The translations under genes and the position numbers were made by a program. The notes beneath the pieces were generated by a model, which made no database searches, was not told where the DNA came from, and saw only the letters and a list, made by a program, of their open reading frames with translations. This document shows, one piece after another, positions 14,542 through 24,582 of a stretch of 64,000 bases of DNA. Numbering within the stretch: position 1 is the stretch's first letter; every line of letters begins with the position of its first letter. The stretch is from contig JANXSF010000127.1 of NCBI GenBank assembly GCA_025352795.1, positions 1 to 64,000 on the forward strand. The letters are read 5' to 3'. Source of the stretch: Acidobacteriota bacterium (lineage in GTDB: Bacteria; Acidobacteriota; Terriglobia; Bryobacterales; Bryobacteraceae).

Positions 14542-16224
14542 GTGCATTACTGGAAACGCGTTTCAATTGCAGCGGCTCTTTCGGGATTGGCCTTGTGGGG
14601 TGCCGCTATCAACCCTCCTCGTTTGGTGGACATTCTGTCTTCTGAGCTGGAACGGAACTTCAAGATACTAAAAGAGAAAGGGGAACCACCGCCCTATTTT
14701 GCTGCTTACGCCATCACTGAAGAACAACAGGAATCCATTGATGCTTCGAGTGGCGCAGTGGTGGGCCGAGATTCCACAAATTCCCGAACTCTAGACGTCA
14801 CGGTGCGCGCGGGCACCATGCAATTCGACAATTATCATCGCAATCAGCGCGATCCGGCCTATTTTACTGGCGGTTTGCCAGTGTCTGTGGATAATAATCC
14901 AGACGCAATCAAGCGCTTTCTATGGGCCGAAACGGATCGGGTCTATCGCATGGCCTCCCAACGGTTGTTGCGATTGCGGACCGATCAGGATGTGAAAGTG
15001 AAACCGGACGATCCGTCTGGTGATTTCTCCTTTGCCGAACCGCAAATTCACACAGCCACCCCCGCCTCACTTCAATTTGCCACTCCTCTTTGGGAACCCA
15101 AAGTTCGCGCCTGGTCCAAGATGTTTACGGTATATCCGGAAATTCTCAACAGCCGGGTTTCCGTGCTGGGACGTCGCGAGACCAAATATTTTGTAAATAC
15201 TGAAGGCACCCAGTTGGAACATGGTCGCCAGTTTTCACGCATCACCATCAGCGCCCGGGCCAAGCATGGCGATGGTATGGACCTGATTGCCAGCGAAACC
15301 TTTGAAGCCGATACCATGCAGCGTTTGCCGAAAGATCAGGTGGTGAAGACTGCCGTGGATAAAGCGGCTGCCGATTTATTGGGTCTGCTAAAGGCTCCTG
15401 AAACCGAACCGTTTGTTGGACCGGCCATTCTTTCTGGCAAAGCGAGCGGAGTCTTTTTCCATGAAATTTTCGGACACCGGGTTGAGGGGCATCGTCAGAA
15501 AGATGAAGGAGAAGGGCAGACGTTCACGAAGAGCGTGGGCAAAAACGTACTTCCAGAATTCTTATCGGTTATTTTCGATCCTACCCAACACCATCTTGCA
15601 GGAAGCGACCTGCACGGCTGGTACGATTACGATGATGAAGGGGTGAAAGCGCAACCTGTGAATCTGGTGGAAAAGGGGATTTTGAAAACCTTTCTATTGT
15701 CCCGATCACCGATTCAAGGATTTCCTGCCTCCAATGGACATGGCCGTCGACAACCGGGGGCAGAGATCGTTTCCCGGCAATCGAACCTGATTGTAGAATC
15801 GTCCAAAAAAGTTCCCGAAAAACAACTGCGTCAAATGTTGCTTGCCGAAGTCAAACGGCAGAACAAGCCCTACGGCCTTTACTTTGAAAAGGTCACTGGC
15901 GGATACACAACCACGGGTCGGGCTGGGTTGCAGGCCTTCACTGTGATGCCGTTGATGGTGTATCGCGTTTATACCGATGGACGCCCCGATGAACTGGTTC
16001 GAGGGGTGGATATTGTCGGAACACCGCTAGCGAGTTTTGCGAAAATCATGGCCACGTCAGACACCCCGGAAGTATTCAACGGGTACTGCGGAGCAGAGTC
16101 TGGATATGTGCCGGTTTCGGCCATTTCGCCTGCATTGCTGGTGTCTGAAATTGAAGTGCAGAAGAAGAGTAAGGCCAGGGATTTGCGGCCATTTTTGAGC
16201 CGCCCGGAAGGAGCAAGCAAGTAA
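14542..16224 (+). CDS. Exported TldD-family metallopeptidase
   Basis: A 560-residue protein with a signal peptide (about 1-22) and a TldD/PmbA C-terminal half. The zinc site HEIFGHRVEGHR (HExxxH) is intact, and so are GWYDYDDEG and ASNGHGRR, which are usual in TldD. Known TldD/TldE heterodimers are cytosolic proteases that process microcins, unfold CcdA or help mature peptide products. The secretion signal here suggests a periplasmic version. The N-terminal region (about 25-290) is longer than in E. coli TldD. GTG start. The TAA overlaps the ATG of the next gene (TAATG), a paralogue without the metal site, so the two probably form a catalytic/non-catalytic pair. Confidence 0.87.
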   Translation: MHYWKRVSIAAALSGLALWGAAINPPRLVDILSSELERNFKILKEKGEPPPYFAAYAITEEQQESIDASSGAVVGRDSTNSRTLDVTVRAGTMQFDNYHRNQRDPAYFTGGLPVSVDNNPDAIKRFLWAETDRVYRMASQRLLRLRTDQDVKVKPDDPSGDFSFAEPQIHTATPASLQFATPLWEPKVRAWSKMFTVYPEILNSRVSVLGRRETKYFVNTEGTQLEHGRQFSRITISARAKHGDGMDLIASETFEADTMQRLPKDQVVKTAVDKAAADLLGLLKAPETEPFVGPAILSGKASGVFFHEIFGHRVEGHRQKDEGEGQTFTKSVGKNVLPEFLSVIFDPTQHHLAGSDLHGWYDYDDEGVKAQPVNLVEKGILKTFLLSRSPIQGFPASNGHGRRQPGAEIVSRQSNLIVESSKKVPEKQLRQMLLAEVKRQNKPYGLYFEKVTGGYTTTGRAGLQAFTVMPLMVYRVYTDGRPDELVRGVDIVGTPLASFAKIMATSDTPEVFNGYCGAESGYVPVSAISPALLVSEIEVQKKSKARDLRPFLSRPEGASK

Positions 16225-17993
16225 TGTCTCGCTATCTGATTTTGTTCTTTTCGCCCTTGCTGTTATGTGCCCAGACTGTGGTTGATGACGATCCGGTTTT
16301 GAAGGCGATGGCTGATGAACTAAAGCATTCCAGCGCAATCCGCATTCCAGGCCCTAATCCGTATCCGCCCTATTTCATTGAATATGGTGGGGAACGATCC
16401 AATTCGTTTACGGCATCGGCCACATCCGGCGGCTTGGTGCGGGCGGTGCGAAACCAATCCTTCAATCCACGAGTGATGGTTCGCGTGGGCAGCGCAAAGT
16501 TGGACAATGGAAATTCAGTTTACACAGGCATGGCCGTTGGTGCCAATTACGATTCTGGTCAGTGGGCTTATGAAGGCGGGTACGATTTACTGCGTCAGCA
16601 ATATTGGCTGGCCACGGATCGCGTTTATAAATCGGCTGTGGAATCGTTTAGTCGCAAGGTGGCAGCGCTGAAAGACCTGACCCAAAGCGAACCGCTCAAC
16701 GACTTTGCCGAAGCCAAGCCGGTGGTCAAGATTCTGCCTGAAGCCAACTATAAGCTGGACGAAGAAAAGTGGAAGGCTAAAATTGTTACGCTTTCTCGCC
16801 TGTTCTTGAAGTTCCCGGAAATTTTGCATTCTTCAGTGGATTTCGATGCTATCAGCGATACGGCTTACTACATGAATTCCGAAGGTTCGAAGCAGCGCTT
16901 TCCGGAAGGTGCATTTCATCTTCGTGCCCGGACGCTGGCCCAAGCTGCCGATGGGTCCAACATTTGGGACTATGTTGCCTTTGGCTCTGAACTGGAATCT
17001 GGTCTTCCGTCGGACGCTGAAATTCAACAAGGCATCAACGGCATAGCAGAAAACACCAAGGCATTGCGCGAGGCCAAGGTGGGAGAAGCATATACCGGTC
17101 CGGTATTGTTTGAGCCACGGGCAGCGGCGCAGATGATGGCCCAAATACTGGCTCATGAACTTCGTCCGGTGCGAACGCCAGTGACCCCTCCTGGTAGACC
17201 GGCGACTCTTCCGCAGAGCGATTGGAGCACTCGCATTGGCTCACGAGTTCTGCCAGATTTTTTTGCTGTGAAGGATGTTCCGCACAAAGCTTTTGCTGAT
17301 GGTAAGCCCTACCTGGGCAACTTTGATGTGGATTTGGAAGGCGTAGTTCCTGAACCGCTGACACTCATTGAAAAAGGTGTTTTGAAGACAATGCTGCACA
17401 CTCGTCAGCCGGTTAGAGGGCACGAAGGGTCCAACGGTCGGGCACGATTCCCTGGCGAATTCGGGGCCAAAACTCCCTTCATGAGCAATGTGGAAATTAC
17501 TGCGGGTGATTCCAAACCGATGGCTGCATTGAAAGCCAGTTTAATCGACTTAGTGAAGCAGCGCGGTAAAGCGTATGGGATTCTGGTTCGCAAGCTGGAT
17601 TATCCATCGGCGGCACCGGGTGAGGAACGCCAGCGACTGATGAGTTCGGCACGATCTTCAGGTTCCAACTTTATCTTCAGCCTGCCCTTGCAGATTTACA
17701 AAGTGTACCCGGATGGTCGTGAAGAATTAATTCGCGGCGTGAAGTTCCGAAACATCACCGGGCGATCACTGCGCGATATTACTGCGGCTTCCAATGAGAC
17801 CAGCCTGTTCTCCTATTACGCAACGAGTGCCCCTTTATCGAGCAGCGGCGGTGGCAGTAGCGCTTATGTGAACGGCGTAACTGTGGAATCGCCTGGCGTG
17901 CTGTTTGATGAATTAGAAATTGAACAGCCACAAAGCGACAAGCCGCGACTTCCCCTGGTTCCGCCTCCGGCTTACGAAACAACTTCTAATTAA
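16224..17993 (+). CDS. Exported TldE-like paralogue with degenerate metal site
   Basis: A 589-residue protein with a signal peptide (MSRYLILFFSPLLLCAQ) and the same domain plan as the preceding TldD-like protein (YPPYFIEY, VKILPE, EPLTLIEKGVLKTML, SNGRARFPG). At the place of HEIFGHRVEGHR it has only AHELRPVRTP, so the HExxxH zinc motif is lost. That parallels TldE/PmbA, the inactive partner in the TldD/TldE heterodimer. Overlapping stop/start codons on both sides (TAATG) predict stoichiometric production with the TldD-like protein and the LptFG permease. Confidence 0.83.
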   Translation: MSRYLILFFSPLLLCAQTVVDDDPVLKAMADELKHSSAIRIPGPNPYPPYFIEYGGERSNSFTASATSGGLVRAVRNQSFNPRVMVRVGSAKLDNGNSVYTGMAVGANYDSGQWAYEGGYDLLRQQYWLATDRVYKSAVESFSRKVAALKDLTQSEPLNDFAEAKPVVKILPEANYKLDEEKWKAKIVTLSRLFLKFPEILHSSVDFDAISDTAYYMNSEGSKQRFPEGAFHLRARTLAQAADGSNIWDYVAFGSELESGLPSDAEIQQGINGIAENTKALREAKVGEAYTGPVLFEPRAAAQMMAQILAHELRPVRTPVTPPGRPATLPQSDWSTRIGSRVLPDFFAVKDVPHKAFADGKPYLGNFDVDLEGVVPEPLTLIEKGVLKTMLHTRQPVRGHEGSNGRARFPGEFGAKTPFMSNVEITAGDSKPMAALKASLIDLVKQRGKAYGILVRKLDYPSAAPGEERQRLMSSARSSGSNFIFSLPLQIYKVYPDGREELIRGVKFRNITGRSLRDITAASNETSLFSYYATSAPLSSSGGGSSAYVNGVTVESPGVLFDELEIEQPQSDKPRLPLVPPPAYETTSN

Positions 17994-20311
17994 TGGGACT
18001 GCTTGGACGGTCAATTTTAAGGGAAATTATCTCGGGCTCATTTCTGGGCACGCTGTTGTTCACGTTTGTTCTGTTTTTACGGCAAGTCAATATTCTGTTT
18101 GAGCAACTGGTGCGCGGATCCGCATCGGCCCCAACCGTTGGATATCTGTTACTGCTGATCTTACCCTTCGCACTTACTTTTACACTTCCTTTGGGCGTAT
18201 TGGCGGGAGTGCTGATTGCCCTTAGCCGTATGTCGAGCGATGGTGAAATTACGGCCATGCGCGCTGCCGGAATCCCAAGTCGGCGAGTGCTTACTCCAGT
18301 GATTTTGTTCTCTGTCTTTGGCATGTTACTCACAGCCGCGTGTTCACTCTGGCTGACTCCCTGGTCCATTCGTGAAACGTATCGAGTGTTGAATCAACTG
18401 GCGGCGGCACAGATGACCGCAGAAATTCAAGGCGGTGTGTTTGCGGAGCAGTTTCCCAATAAAACGGTTTATGTGAGCGATGTGATTGCGGGCCCGGTAG
18501 TGCAGTGGCGGAACATTTTTATTGCAGATCTGACTCCGCCAGAACAGCGCAAGAAAAGTACCCAGGAAATGGGCGATGCCCCCATAATCACCACGGCGCG
18601 GGAAGCGATTGCGATTACTGACCCGGGCCAGAATAGAATTCAACTGCATATGAAAGAGCAGCAGACGCACAGTTTGGGTAAAGACTCAAAGCTGTATTAC
18701 AACGTGCGGTCGTCCCCCAGTGATCAGGTGTTGGAAGCGCAGCGACCGGGGGAAACCAAGGCTCAGGCATTTCGCGATATGGACACCATTCCGTTGTGGA
18801 AGCAGATCGCAACATCACGCGAAGGGGCCATTGAATTCCATCGACGTTTCTCACTTCCGCCTGCCTGCCTATTGTTGGCGCTGCTGGGCATCCCACTGGG
18901 CGTTTCTTCCAGAAAAGCAGGCAAGTCCGCAGCATTTGTCATCACCGTGTTTCTCGCGTTCGTCTATTGGATGGCGCAAATCAGTCTGATTCAGTTGGCA
19001 CAACAAGGTAAGCTTTCCGTTCCGCTGGCGGCGTGGTTGCCGAATATAATGTTCGCCACTGGAGCTGTCTTGTTGACGGTAGGTTTGGAAAACCCAGGGG
19101 ATCGCGATTACTTGGGCCGGATCAAGGATTGGTTTCGTTTTCGTTTTGAGGGTATGACTGGTTGGATAAAAGGAACGCAACCCAAAGCCCGACCGCAATT
19201 CGGGTTCGGCCTGCGCATGCTCCCTTCGATTGTGGACACTTACATCCTAAGTGAGTTCTTTTTCTACTTTACTGTTTGGTTAGTAAGCTTCATTGCAATG
19301 ACTCATGTCTATAACTTCTTTGAATTGATGGGTCACATTCTTCGTAACAACATTTCTATGTGGGAAGTGGCCGAGTATCATTTCTTTCTTACTCCTAAGT
19401 TGATTTATGATTCGGCGCCTTACTCGGTTCTTGTAGCTGTTCTAGCTACGTTCGCCATCTTATCGAAACAAAATGAAGTTACTGCGTTCAAAGCTTGTGG
19501 GGTCAGCTTGTACAGATTGTCACTCCCAGTTTTGATGGCCTGCGTAGTGTTGAGTGCCGGTTTATTTGCCTTCGACCATTACATTATTCCCGATGCTAAT
19601 CTGCGCCAGGACGGGCTGCGGAACAAGATTATGGGTAAAGCGACACAGACGTGGTTACGTCCTGATCGTAAGTGGATCTACGGTATGGGATCGCGCATTT
19701 TTTATTACAAACATTTTGATGCGGCTGAAAAAGTAATGGTTGGCGTTCATGTGTATGAGTTGGACAAAGCCACTTTCCAGTTACGTCGACACATTGCAGC
19801 GGATCGGGCTGAATGGCAGGATGGCATCCATAGTTGGATTTTTCAAAACGGTTGGGTGCGTGATTTCAAAGATATTTACGTAGAGGGTTACAACACTTAT
19901 CAGGCCACAACCTTCCCGGAATTAGAAGAGACTCCCGGTTACTTTCTGCAGGAAGAAAAGCAGTATAAGCAGATGAACTTTCTGCAATTGGAAAGTTACA
20001 TTCAGAAGCTGCAACAGATGGGGTTCGATACGGTGAAGCTTCAAGTGCAGTATCACCGCAAGTTTTCCACCCCTCTATTTGCTCTGATCATGGCGGCGCT
20101 GGCGGTACCCTTCGCCTTTCTTACGGGGAGCCGCGGGTCTATGGCGTCCATTGGGGTCAGCTTTATTGTGGCCATTATGTACGGCGTGGTTACTCAGTTA
20201 TTTGAAAAAGTGGGAAATCTTAATCAACTTCCTCCAGCGGTGGCGGCATGGGCTCCGGATGTTGTGTTTGCTCTGTTCGCCGCCTGGTTATTTACTCGCA
20301 TGAGGAGTTAG
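17993..20311 (+). CDS. Fused LptF-LptG lipopolysaccharide export permease
   Basis: A 772-residue inner-membrane protein made of two YjgP/YjgQ-type permease halves (about 1-370 and 410-772). Each half has its own N-terminal helices, periplasmic jellyroll and C-terminal helices. The duplicated signature is visible: DGEITAMRAAGIP in the first and NEVTAFKACGVSLYRL in the second. Separate LptF and LptG normally form the transmembrane part of the LptB2FG extractor that lifts LPS to LptC/A. Here one chain supplies both. It starts at an ATG overlapping the stop of the TldE-like gene. No lptB, lptC or lptA is nearby. Confidence 0.9.
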   Translation: MGLLGRSILREIISGSFLGTLLFTFVLFLRQVNILFEQLVRGSASAPTVGYLLLLILPFALTFTLPLGVLAGVLIALSRMSSDGEITAMRAAGIPSRRVLTPVILFSVFGMLLTAACSLWLTPWSIRETYRVLNQLAAAQMTAEIQGGVFAEQFPNKTVYVSDVIAGPVVQWRNIFIADLTPPEQRKKSTQEMGDAPIITTAREAIAITDPGQNRIQLHMKEQQTHSLGKDSKLYYNVRSSPSDQVLEAQRPGETKAQAFRDMDTIPLWKQIATSREGAIEFHRRFSLPPACLLLALLGIPLGVSSRKAGKSAAFVITVFLAFVYWMAQISLIQLAQQGKLSVPLAAWLPNIMFATGAVLLTVGLENPGDRDYLGRIKDWFRFRFEGMTGWIKGTQPKARPQFGFGLRMLPSIVDTYILSEFFFYFTVWLVSFIAMTHVYNFFELMGHILRNNISMWEVAEYHFFLTPKLIYDSAPYSVLVAVLATFAILSKQNEVTAFKACGVSLYRLSLPVLMACVVLSAGLFAFDHYIIPDANLRQDGLRNKIMGKATQTWLRPDRKWIYGMGSRIFYYKHFDAAEKVMVGVHVYELDKATFQLRRHIAADRAEWQDGIHSWIFQNGWVRDFKDIYVEGYNTYQATTFPELEETPGYFLQEEKQYKQMNFLQLESYIQKLQQMGFDTVKLQVQYHRKFSTPLFALIMAALAVPFAFLTGSRGSMASIGVSFIVAIMYGVVTQLFEKVGNLNQLPPAVAAWAPDVVFALFAAWLFTRMRS

Positions 20312-20468: not shown

Positions 20469-21017
20469 ATGTGGAATCGCCGGAAAGAGGATGTGCCGCC
20501 GAATACGAGACCGTCATCGGCGCCGCCATCACCATCAGAATTAGCCAGAGAGGGAATACCTATGAGCACCTTGCCAGCCCGTGGCTTTGATCAACTTGAC
20601 GCCAGCTCCCGCGGTACCGCGGCCATTGGCAAAAGCGTCGTCATAAAAGGAAACATCTTCAGTCGTGAAGACCTTATTGTAGATGGCGAAATTGAAGGGG
20701 CCATTGAAATGTTGGAACACCGCTTGACGGTGGGCCCGAATGGAACGCTGAAGGCCACTGTGAAGGCCAGGGAGATCATTGTAGTTGGCACTATCCACGG
20801 CAATGTGGAAGCCACCGACAAGATTGAAATCCGCAAAGAAGCCAAGCTGGTGGGCGATATCAAGACGCAGCGCATTGTGATTGAAGACGGTGCCTATTTC
20901 AAGGGGTCAATCGACATTATCCGCCCTGAAGTGACCAAGCCAGTGGCCAAGGCGGCAGCGGCAACGGGCGCAGGTCCGACGATCAATGTACCTCAGCCCC
21001 AGACTTTGAAATTGTAA
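20469..21017 (+). CDS. Bactofilin-family cytoskeletal protein
   Basis: A 182-residue polymer-forming cytoskeletal protein. Residues about 50-150 form the bactofilin (DUF583) right-handed beta-helix, with short repeats of the type G.I.g.I.a.ekI.I...A.v.GDI. It is flanked by a flexible proline/serine-rich N-terminus and an alanine-rich C-terminus ending PQPQTLKL. Bactofilins polymerise without nucleotide and organise cell-wall or polar structures. A strong AGGAGG 8 bases before the ATG supports this start over the internal methionine at residue 32. The next gene, a methyltransferase-like protein, begins 27 bases after the stop. Confidence 0.92.
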   Translation: MWNRRKEDVPPNTRPSSAPPSPSELAREGIPMSTLPARGFDQLDASSRGTAAIGKSVVIKGNIFSREDLIVDGEIEGAIEMLEHRLTVGPNGTLKATVKAREIIVVGTIHGNVEATDKIEIRKEAKLVGDIKTQRIVIEDGAYFKGSIDIIRPEVTKPVAKAAAATGAGPTINVPQPQTLKL

Positions 21018-23346: not shown

Positions 23347-24582
23347 ATGCCGTCCTTTGAATTGTTTGTGGCGCAGCGATATTTGCGTGCGAAACGCAAG
23401 CAGGCGGTCATTTCAATCATTACTGTGATCTCGATCCTCGGCGTAGCGGCTGGTGTTATGGCGCTGATTATTGCTTTGGCTGTGACCACTGGATTTAAAA
23501 ATACTCTGCAGCGAAGCTTGTTAGGAGCTACGGCGCATATCACGCTGCTATCGAAGAACCCGGCTGAAGGAATCGAAAACTGGCGGGAACTTGCTACACG
23601 ATTAAGCAAGCTGCCTCATGTATTGAATGCGAATCCCACGTTGTTTGGCGAAGTACTTTTTGCTGGCCCTTTACGTGGTCAAGGCGGAGTATTGAAGGGA
23701 CTGGACATGCAATCCCCCACAGCCTTTGCCGACCTTTCCAAATACATGAAGCAAGGTTCAATGGATGGACTCGGCAAGGTGGGTGAGCGCTTTCCGTGCA
23801 TCTTGCTCGGCTCCGTTATGGCTGAAAAAACCGGCATGCTGTTGAACAGCGTCATCACCGTGATCAGCCCGCAGGGAGAGATTACGCCGCTGGGTCCAAG
23901 GCCAAGCTCCTATCAGTTTCGAGTGTGTGGCATTTACAAGAGCGACTTCTTTGAACTGGATTCTTTGTGGGCGTTTGCTTCGCTGGAACAGACGCAGCGG
24001 GTGACCTCACTGCCCGGCGTTGTCAGTGCCATTGAATTTCGGGTGGACGATATTTATCAGGCTCCAGAGATTGCTAAGCAAATTGAACAAGCGGCTGGTG
24101 GTAATGTTGCGGCAACGCATTGGCAGGAACAGAATCGCCCCATTTTGAACGCGTTGAAAATGGATCGTGTTGTAACGTTGATCACCATCGGATTGATTGA
24201 GTTAATTGCCGGACTCAATATTCTGATCAGCCTGGTAATGATGGTGATGGAAAAGAATAAGGACATTGCCATTCTGGTTTCCATGGGTGCTCGCGTTTCG
24301 CAAATTCGGAAGATCTTTGTACTGCAGGGGTTGATCATCGGTGCGGTTGGAACTGCTCTGGGGCTCATCGGCGGTTACACGATCAGCTATCTTGCTGGGC
24401 ATTATCATTGGATTCAACTGGACGAAGCGGTCTATTCGCTAAGCTACGTGCCGTTTGAACCACGCTGGACGGACGGTGTTTGGGTGGCTGCGGCGGCGAT
24501 GGTTGTCAGCTATCTGGCTACGATTTATCCTGCTCGCGCTGCCGCTCGTATTCTGCCGCTGGAATCGCTCCGCTACGAATAA
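23347..24582 (+). CDS. LolC/LolE-type lipoprotein-releasing permease
   Basis: A 411-residue MacB/FtsX-fold membrane protein: one N-terminal transmembrane helix after the typical VAQRYLRAKRKQ start, a large periplasmic domain (about 50-270), and three C-terminal helices with IAILVSMGARVSQIRKIFVLQG. LolCDE extracts outer-membrane lipoproteins from the inner membrane and hands them to LolA. The ATPase LolD is not adjacent; the next gene is asnB, three bases after the stop. A single C/E-type subunit may work as a homodimer, as proposed for many non-enteric bacteria. Confidence 0.88.
   Translation: MPSFELFVAQRYLRAKRKQAVISIITVISILGVAAGVMALIIALAVTTGFKNTLQRSLLGATAHITLLSKNPAEGIENWRELATRLSKLPHVLNANPTLFGEVLFAGPLRGQGGVLKGLDMQSPTAFADLSKYMKQGSMDGLGKVGERFPCILLGSVMAEKTGMLLNSVITVISPQGEITPLGPRPSSYQFRVCGIYKSDFFELDSLWAFASLEQTQRVTSLPGVVSAIEFRVDDIYQAPEIAKQIEQAAGGNVAATHWQEQNRPILNALKMDRVVTLITIGLIELIAGLNILISLVMMVMEKNKDIAILVSMGARVSQIRKIFVLQGLIIGAVGTALGLIGGYTISYLAGHYHWIQLDEAVYSLSYVPFEPRWTDGVWVAAAAMVVSYLATIYPARAAARILPLESLRYE

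Follow-up and report, generated by a model that had tools for sequence, protein, structure and literature searches.

The window examined here, a stretch of 64,000 nucleotides from a member of the Bryobacteraceae (Acidobacteriota; contig JANXSF010000127.1 of assembly GCA_025352795.1), holds three joined open reading frames on the forward strand at positions 14542-20311. The first (A; 14542-16224, 560 residues, GTG start) encodes a putative exported metallopeptidase subunit of the TldD type. The second (B; 16224-17993, 589 residues, ATG start) encodes a putatively exported TldD paralogue that lacks the metal site and that we infer to be the structural partner of A. The third (17993-20311, 772 residues, ATG start) encodes LptF and LptG fused in one protein. 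The stop codon of A overlaps the start codon of B in the pentamer TAATG (16222-16226), and the stop of B overlaps the start of LptFG in the same manner (17991-17995). Both overlaps, and the frames that they join, lie exactly where the original prediction, made from the bare sequence, had put them. The linkage of the entire trio through such overlaps, which that prediction had stressed, held for its first junction and failed for its second when the loci of relatives were compared: of 68 A-B pairs, 51 have an overlap of 1 or 4 bases, whereas LptFG usually starts about 4-50 bases past the end of B, making the second overlap particular to the window. Scans for promoters and terminators returned nothing better than did shuffled sequence.

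Profile searches placed both A and B in the TldD/TldE superfamily (M103). The Pfam domain PmbA_TldD_3rd was recognised in A (7e-29, 101 bits) and in B (5e-12, 45.9 bits) against a cut-off of 22 bits, and A also matched the second PmbA_TldD domain (2.5e-5). The N-terminal domain of either protein went unrecognised by PmbA_TldD_1st. Escherichia coli TldD was retrieved with A by phmmer (3e-12). Identity to the E. coli system is 18%, and both A and B are longer than the E. coli proteins by about 80-140 residues. Scores against the NCBIfam equivalog models were low. A remained below both TldD cut-offs (PRK10735, 42.5 of 513 bits; NF040952, the archaeal TldD and its best NCBIfam match, 94.5 of 635 bits), and B scored 10 bits against the TldE (PmbA) model, for which the cut-off is 438. 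We take A and B to be members of the superfamily and orthologues of neither TldD nor TldE.

Structural models agree with this placement. AlphaFold2 monomers were of high confidence (mean predicted local distance difference test scores of 92.3 for A and 90.9 for B), and VIA-align superimposed the model of A on the TldD entries 5nj5/5njc (MEROPS M103; PMC5810440) with a Z score of 38 and a root-mean-square deviation of 3.3 over 445 residues. Foldseek matched the model of B to TldD (1e-24) and to TldE/PmbA (1e-23). In both programs the significant matches of the two models were TldD, TldE and PmbA entries only; capping protein and major histocompatibility complex folds appeared in lower rows, ranked under these entries, and were dismissed as background.

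The catalytic site is intact in one subunit and lost in the other, as had been proposed, both in the window and in every relative inspected. E. coli TldD/TldE is a hollow heterodimer with a single site in TldD, where His262, His267 and Cys454 bind the metal and Glu263 acts as the base, and TldE carries none of the metal ligands (PMC5810440). In A the corresponding motif is HEIFGH (15460-15477), which matches that of E. coli TldD and would supply two metal ligands (H307 and H312) and the general base (E308), with Cys516 (16087-16089; E. coli Cys454) as the probable third ligand. H307, E308, G311, H312, C516 and G517 are invariant among 55 aligned A proteins. Alignment shows that B replaces the motif with the degenerate AQILAH (17139-17156), has A306 and Q307 at matching places and lacks the Cys. 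Its H311 is a chance remnant that is missing from most B relatives, and the HExxxH motif and Cys occur in none of the aligned B proteins.

Characterised TldD/TldE proteins are cytosolic, and process peptide antibiotics or labile proteins. Sec-type signal peptides are nevertheless predicted at the N termini of both A and B, each with a hydrophobic core. That of A spans about 22 residues (VHYWKRVSIAAALSGLALWGAA; 14542-14607) and that of B about 16 residues (MSRYLILFFSPLLLCA; 16224-16271), in each case with a putative cleavage site. We scored as positive any protein with an N-terminal stretch of 10 residues of mean hydropathy of at least 1.8, under a single start-picking rule for the relatives of A and B. 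By this measure 74 of 77 A relatives (96%) and 73 of 75 B relatives (97%) possess the core, although the rule takes the best candidate start and favours positives, a choice that the controls did not have. Internal windows of the same proteins reached the threshold in 6% of cases, and the canonical TldD/TldE proteins of the window's genome and of E. coli, the latter without signal peptides, did not exceed 1.71. Several A proteins of Myxococcota carry lipobox-type signals. Given the conservation of the signals in two phyla, the canonical controls and the lipobox variants, we regard an artefact of start choice as an unlikely source of the signal peptides.

The family was surveyed in Acidobacteriota and Myxococcota. 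In an even sample of 297 acidobacterial genomes from 167 genera, it was present in 46 genomes and 23 genera, with A and B nearly always side by side; in G051 the two lie on separate contigs, and G033 has one divergent A-like protein. A further 66 named loci were drawn from a collection of species genomes. A locus labelled Proteobacteria F1-80-MAGs037 gave entry to a second phylum, in which the A profile matched 126 of 284 genomes. We read this phylum as Myxococcota because MYXO-CTERM domains occur in 15 of 15 of its genomes tested and in 0 of 14 controls. Adjacent A and B genes with signal peptides were found at 13 of 20 Myxococcota loci, counts that are not frequencies for the phylum as the loci were mostly chosen among the best matches. 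Signals, pairing and the intact or lost site are thus conserved across both phyla, and the proposal of an exported pair of catalytic and non-catalytic subunits is borne out at the level of sequence. Three loci bear public labels of other groups (L102, Betaproteobacteria; L114, Bacillota; L131, Proteobacteria); their A proteins and neighbouring genes look acidobacterial or myxococcal, and the labels look wrong.

Phylogenetic trees were informative about the origin of the inactive subunit. In a tree that included the canonical proteins of the window's genome and of E. coli, A and B fell in one clade (support 100/99), and a topology grouping all HExxxH proteins, with A joined to cytosolic TldD, was worse by 66.7 log-likelihood units and was rejected by the approximately unbiased (AU) test (p = 0.0008). 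When Myxococcota were added, the exported clade was recovered with support of 100/100 and all B proteins formed one group inside it (99/96). From the grouping of B with A, together with the AU test, we reject B as an orthologue of TldE. Provided that the tree is rooted among the canonical proteins, B seems to be a duplicate of an exported A whose site was lost separately from that of TldE. Three lone Myxococcota A proteins in the tree (L203, L204 and L205) diverge outside the group of paired ones, and the ancestor of B was perhaps a lone exported protein. The exported clade is parted from the rest by long branches, and the separate origin of B is well supported, if not beyond doubt.

A and B are best read as an exported TldD/TldE (M103) subfamily not described before. 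We think it probable that they make up an extracytoplasmic, chambered, ATP-independent metallopeptidase of the heterodimeric TldD/TldE type. The sequences, models and trees show the genes, their signal peptides, the monomer folds, the site pattern, the pairing and the descent; export, dimerisation, catalysis and substrates are here inferred. Because the fold, the metal ligands and the pairing of an active with a dead subunit are common to A-B and E. coli TldD/TldE, the likeliest function is the same chemistry carried out beyond the cytoplasm. The E. coli enzyme trims unfolded peptides from their N terminus without sequence preference (PMC5810440; PMC10885120). In our model, A and B would be translated as a coupled unit, and each would leave the cytoplasm by means of a Sec signal peptide of its own. 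The two would then form a hollow heterodimer, with A holding the sole metal (through His307, His312 and Cys516, with Glu308 as the general base) and B closing the chamber. On the pattern of E. coli TldD/TldE, a narrow opening would admit unfolded or short peptides, which would be held as a beta strand whatever their sequence and shortened from their N-terminal end without use of ATP. Remnants of signal peptides, misfolded exported proteins and imported peptides would be likely substrates. B would have arisen by duplication within the exported lineage, losing its site there separately from TldE, and the joining of the pair to lptFG in Bryobacterales would serve co-expression and lie outside the mechanism of the pair.

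Several observations weigh against this peptidase. Of the residues that anchor the clamp in E. coli TldD, Glu270 is retained in A as E315, but Asp272 and Lys456 are replaced (by His317 and Ala518), so that the second-shell chemistry of the site differs. That the activity is proteolytic is also not certain, as the family holds N-deacetylases as well, according to the title of a review cited in PMC10885120. Both points would suit an extracytoplasmic amidohydrolase, in which the metal site removes an N-acyl or amide group from an envelope glycan, a muropeptide or a small molecule. We hold such an enzyme to be unlikely, since no genes of natural-product or cell-wall pathways recur beside the pair, and both the fold as a whole and the metal ligands belong to the peptidase type. 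A third difficulty is that A occurs with no B next to it at 7 of the 20 Myxococcota loci, and therefore B is not always needed. The enzyme could then be A alone, acting as a homodimer, with B an independent binding protein or regulator that owes its position to tandem duplication only. The branching of lone exported A proteins outside the paired ones, several with lipobox-type signals, and an active TldD homodimer of Sulfolobus, reported in work that PMC5810440 discusses, speak for this. However, the overlap of A and B is kept across the phylum, the two co-occur in almost every acidobacterial genome that bears the family, and in E. coli the heterodimer is the more stable assembly (PMC5810440). 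These facts make a self-sufficient A improbable for the paired loci. A lead in favour of the exported peptidase, and no more than a lead, is 'Peptidase U62' of Myxococcus xanthus (MXAN_2519), detected by mass spectrometry in outer-membrane and vesicle fractions (PMC4158809). It resembles A-B in its TldD-family annotation, its envelope location and a host phylum that holds the exported clade, of which this uncharacterised protein may be a member. At four Myxococcota loci (L203, L204, L205 and L207) a putatively exported TldD-type protein with a lipobox-like signal (..GC) stands alone, no B gene lying beside it. By analogy with Sulfolobus solfataricus TldD, the lone exported A proteins may be homodimers.

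The peptidase that we favour can also be set against its closest known counterparts. E. coli TldD/TldE likewise has paired subunits, with HExxxH and a remote Cys in one and neither in the other. It differs from A-B in lacking signal peptides, in the recognition of its first domain by Pfam and in its clamp anchors. Its genes, tldD and tldE, lie far apart, whereas those of A and B are adjacent and overlapping, and its inactive subunit has an origin separate from that of B in our trees. Archaeal TldD (NF040952), including the S. solfataricus homodimer, shares the catalytic subunit and motif with A but not its signal peptide, and is set apart by the low profile score given above. In the open literature searched, which did not include the family review of Vobruba 2022, we found no direct description of an exported or periplasmic TldD or of an exported TldD/TldE pair, the M. 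xanthus vesicle proteome being the one lead. Plasmids searched for the exported form yielded nothing beyond partial matches of less than 30% identity, the annotated ones being TldD or TldD/PmbA.

A broader proposal is that A-B represents a second, separately evolved heterodimer of catalytic and dead TldD subunits, an ATP-independent chambered peptidase outside the cytoplasm of Acidobacteriota and Myxococcota that descends from a lone exported TldD ancestor, and hence that the architecture evolved twice. We give this an even chance. Nature would then have repeated the evolution of an inactive partner, and a comparison of lone exported A, paired A and B, and TldD/TldE in one assay could ask what purpose that partner serves. 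Two large soil phyla, in which envelope proteolysis is little studied, would gain a class of extracytoplasmic protease from so widespread an exported branch.

The gene downstream of B bears on another explanation. The LptF_LptG domain of Pfam occurs twice in the 772-residue protein, and the first half scored as LptF (311.7 bits, cut-off 230) and the second as LptG (314.6 bits, cut-off 240) in NCBIfam, both above the curated cut-offs, in keeping with the fused permease that had been predicted. The original prediction went on to suggest a protease perhaps acting on the Lpt bridge or on exported peptides. The pair would, on the first of these accounts, be a quality-control or maturation protease for LptFG, LptC, LptA or LptD, matched to it in dose and place by a shared operon. 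In support, the order A-B-LptFG is kept with short gaps in 27 loci of the Bryobacterales type (the window, L135 and L136 among them), the A proteins of which are mostly about 52-62% identical to that of the window, and the window's genome has no LptF/G gene other than the fused one. Yet no LptFG lies beside the pair in the Acidiferrales and other Acidobacteriota loci that were read or in any of the 20 Myxococcota loci (0/20). Within Bryobacterales, moreover, L083 and L123 carry the pair without it. L090 does so as well; since L091, likewise of the SbA3 lineage, has LptFG, L090 is apparently an additional copy of the pair there. Other neighbours (a cation efflux protein, an M1 peptidase, FecR, a photolyase and others) have no common theme, of envelope biogenesis or otherwise. 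Gene order is thus conserved in two phyla for A-B and, among the loci read, limited to Bryobacterales for A-B-LptFG. The linkage to LptFG is inherited within this one order, where it may have a role in co-expression; since the pair lives without LptFG elsewhere, its function cannot be defined by this link. From the gene neighbourhoods we reject lipopolysaccharide export as the general function of the pair, and hold a protease dedicated to the Lpt bridge to be highly improbable.

The LptF-LptG fusion is seemingly kept among Bryobacterales relatives. There also appear to be two exported pairs per genome or lineage in some cases (L089 and L090 versus L091; G298, locus L110), only one of them beside LptFG where applicable. 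In E. coli K-12, tldD adjoins yhdP, an envelope phospholipid transport factor (L159, 3388000-3396000), and the likeness of this setting to the Lpt neighbourhood could be coincidental. Downstream of LptFG the window encodes a bactofilin (20469-21017) and, at 23347-24582, an FtsX/MacB-type permease resembling LolC/E, both genes of envelope type, with a lysyl-tRNA synthetase-like reading frame between them.

The window's genome encodes eight proteins with PmbA/TldD domains, arranged as four adjacent pairs. The pair on contig C125 is an ordinary cytosolic TldD/TldE that groups with the E. coli proteins, and the exported pair is therefore an addition to, and not a replacement of, the canonical one. 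The pairs on C125, C12 and C11 share with A-B the PmbA_TldD_3rd domain and the adjacency of catalytic and non-catalytic genes, but fall outside the exported clade in the tree. The C125 and C12 pairs lack signal peptides, and that on C11 has a signal resembling those of twin-arginine translocation (Tat) on its catalytic subunit only. The C11 pair (L157, 7403-8968 and 8982-10388) has relatives at L213, L214, L219, L220, L227 and L228. A Tat-like N terminus (SRRTFIQ, RRDFLR or similar) is seen in the TldD gene of this type in about 7 of the 22 relatives that could be read, and the adjoining TldE-like partner has no evident signal peptide. Such an arrangement would be compatible with a possible hitchhiker export of the folded C11-type pair by Tat.

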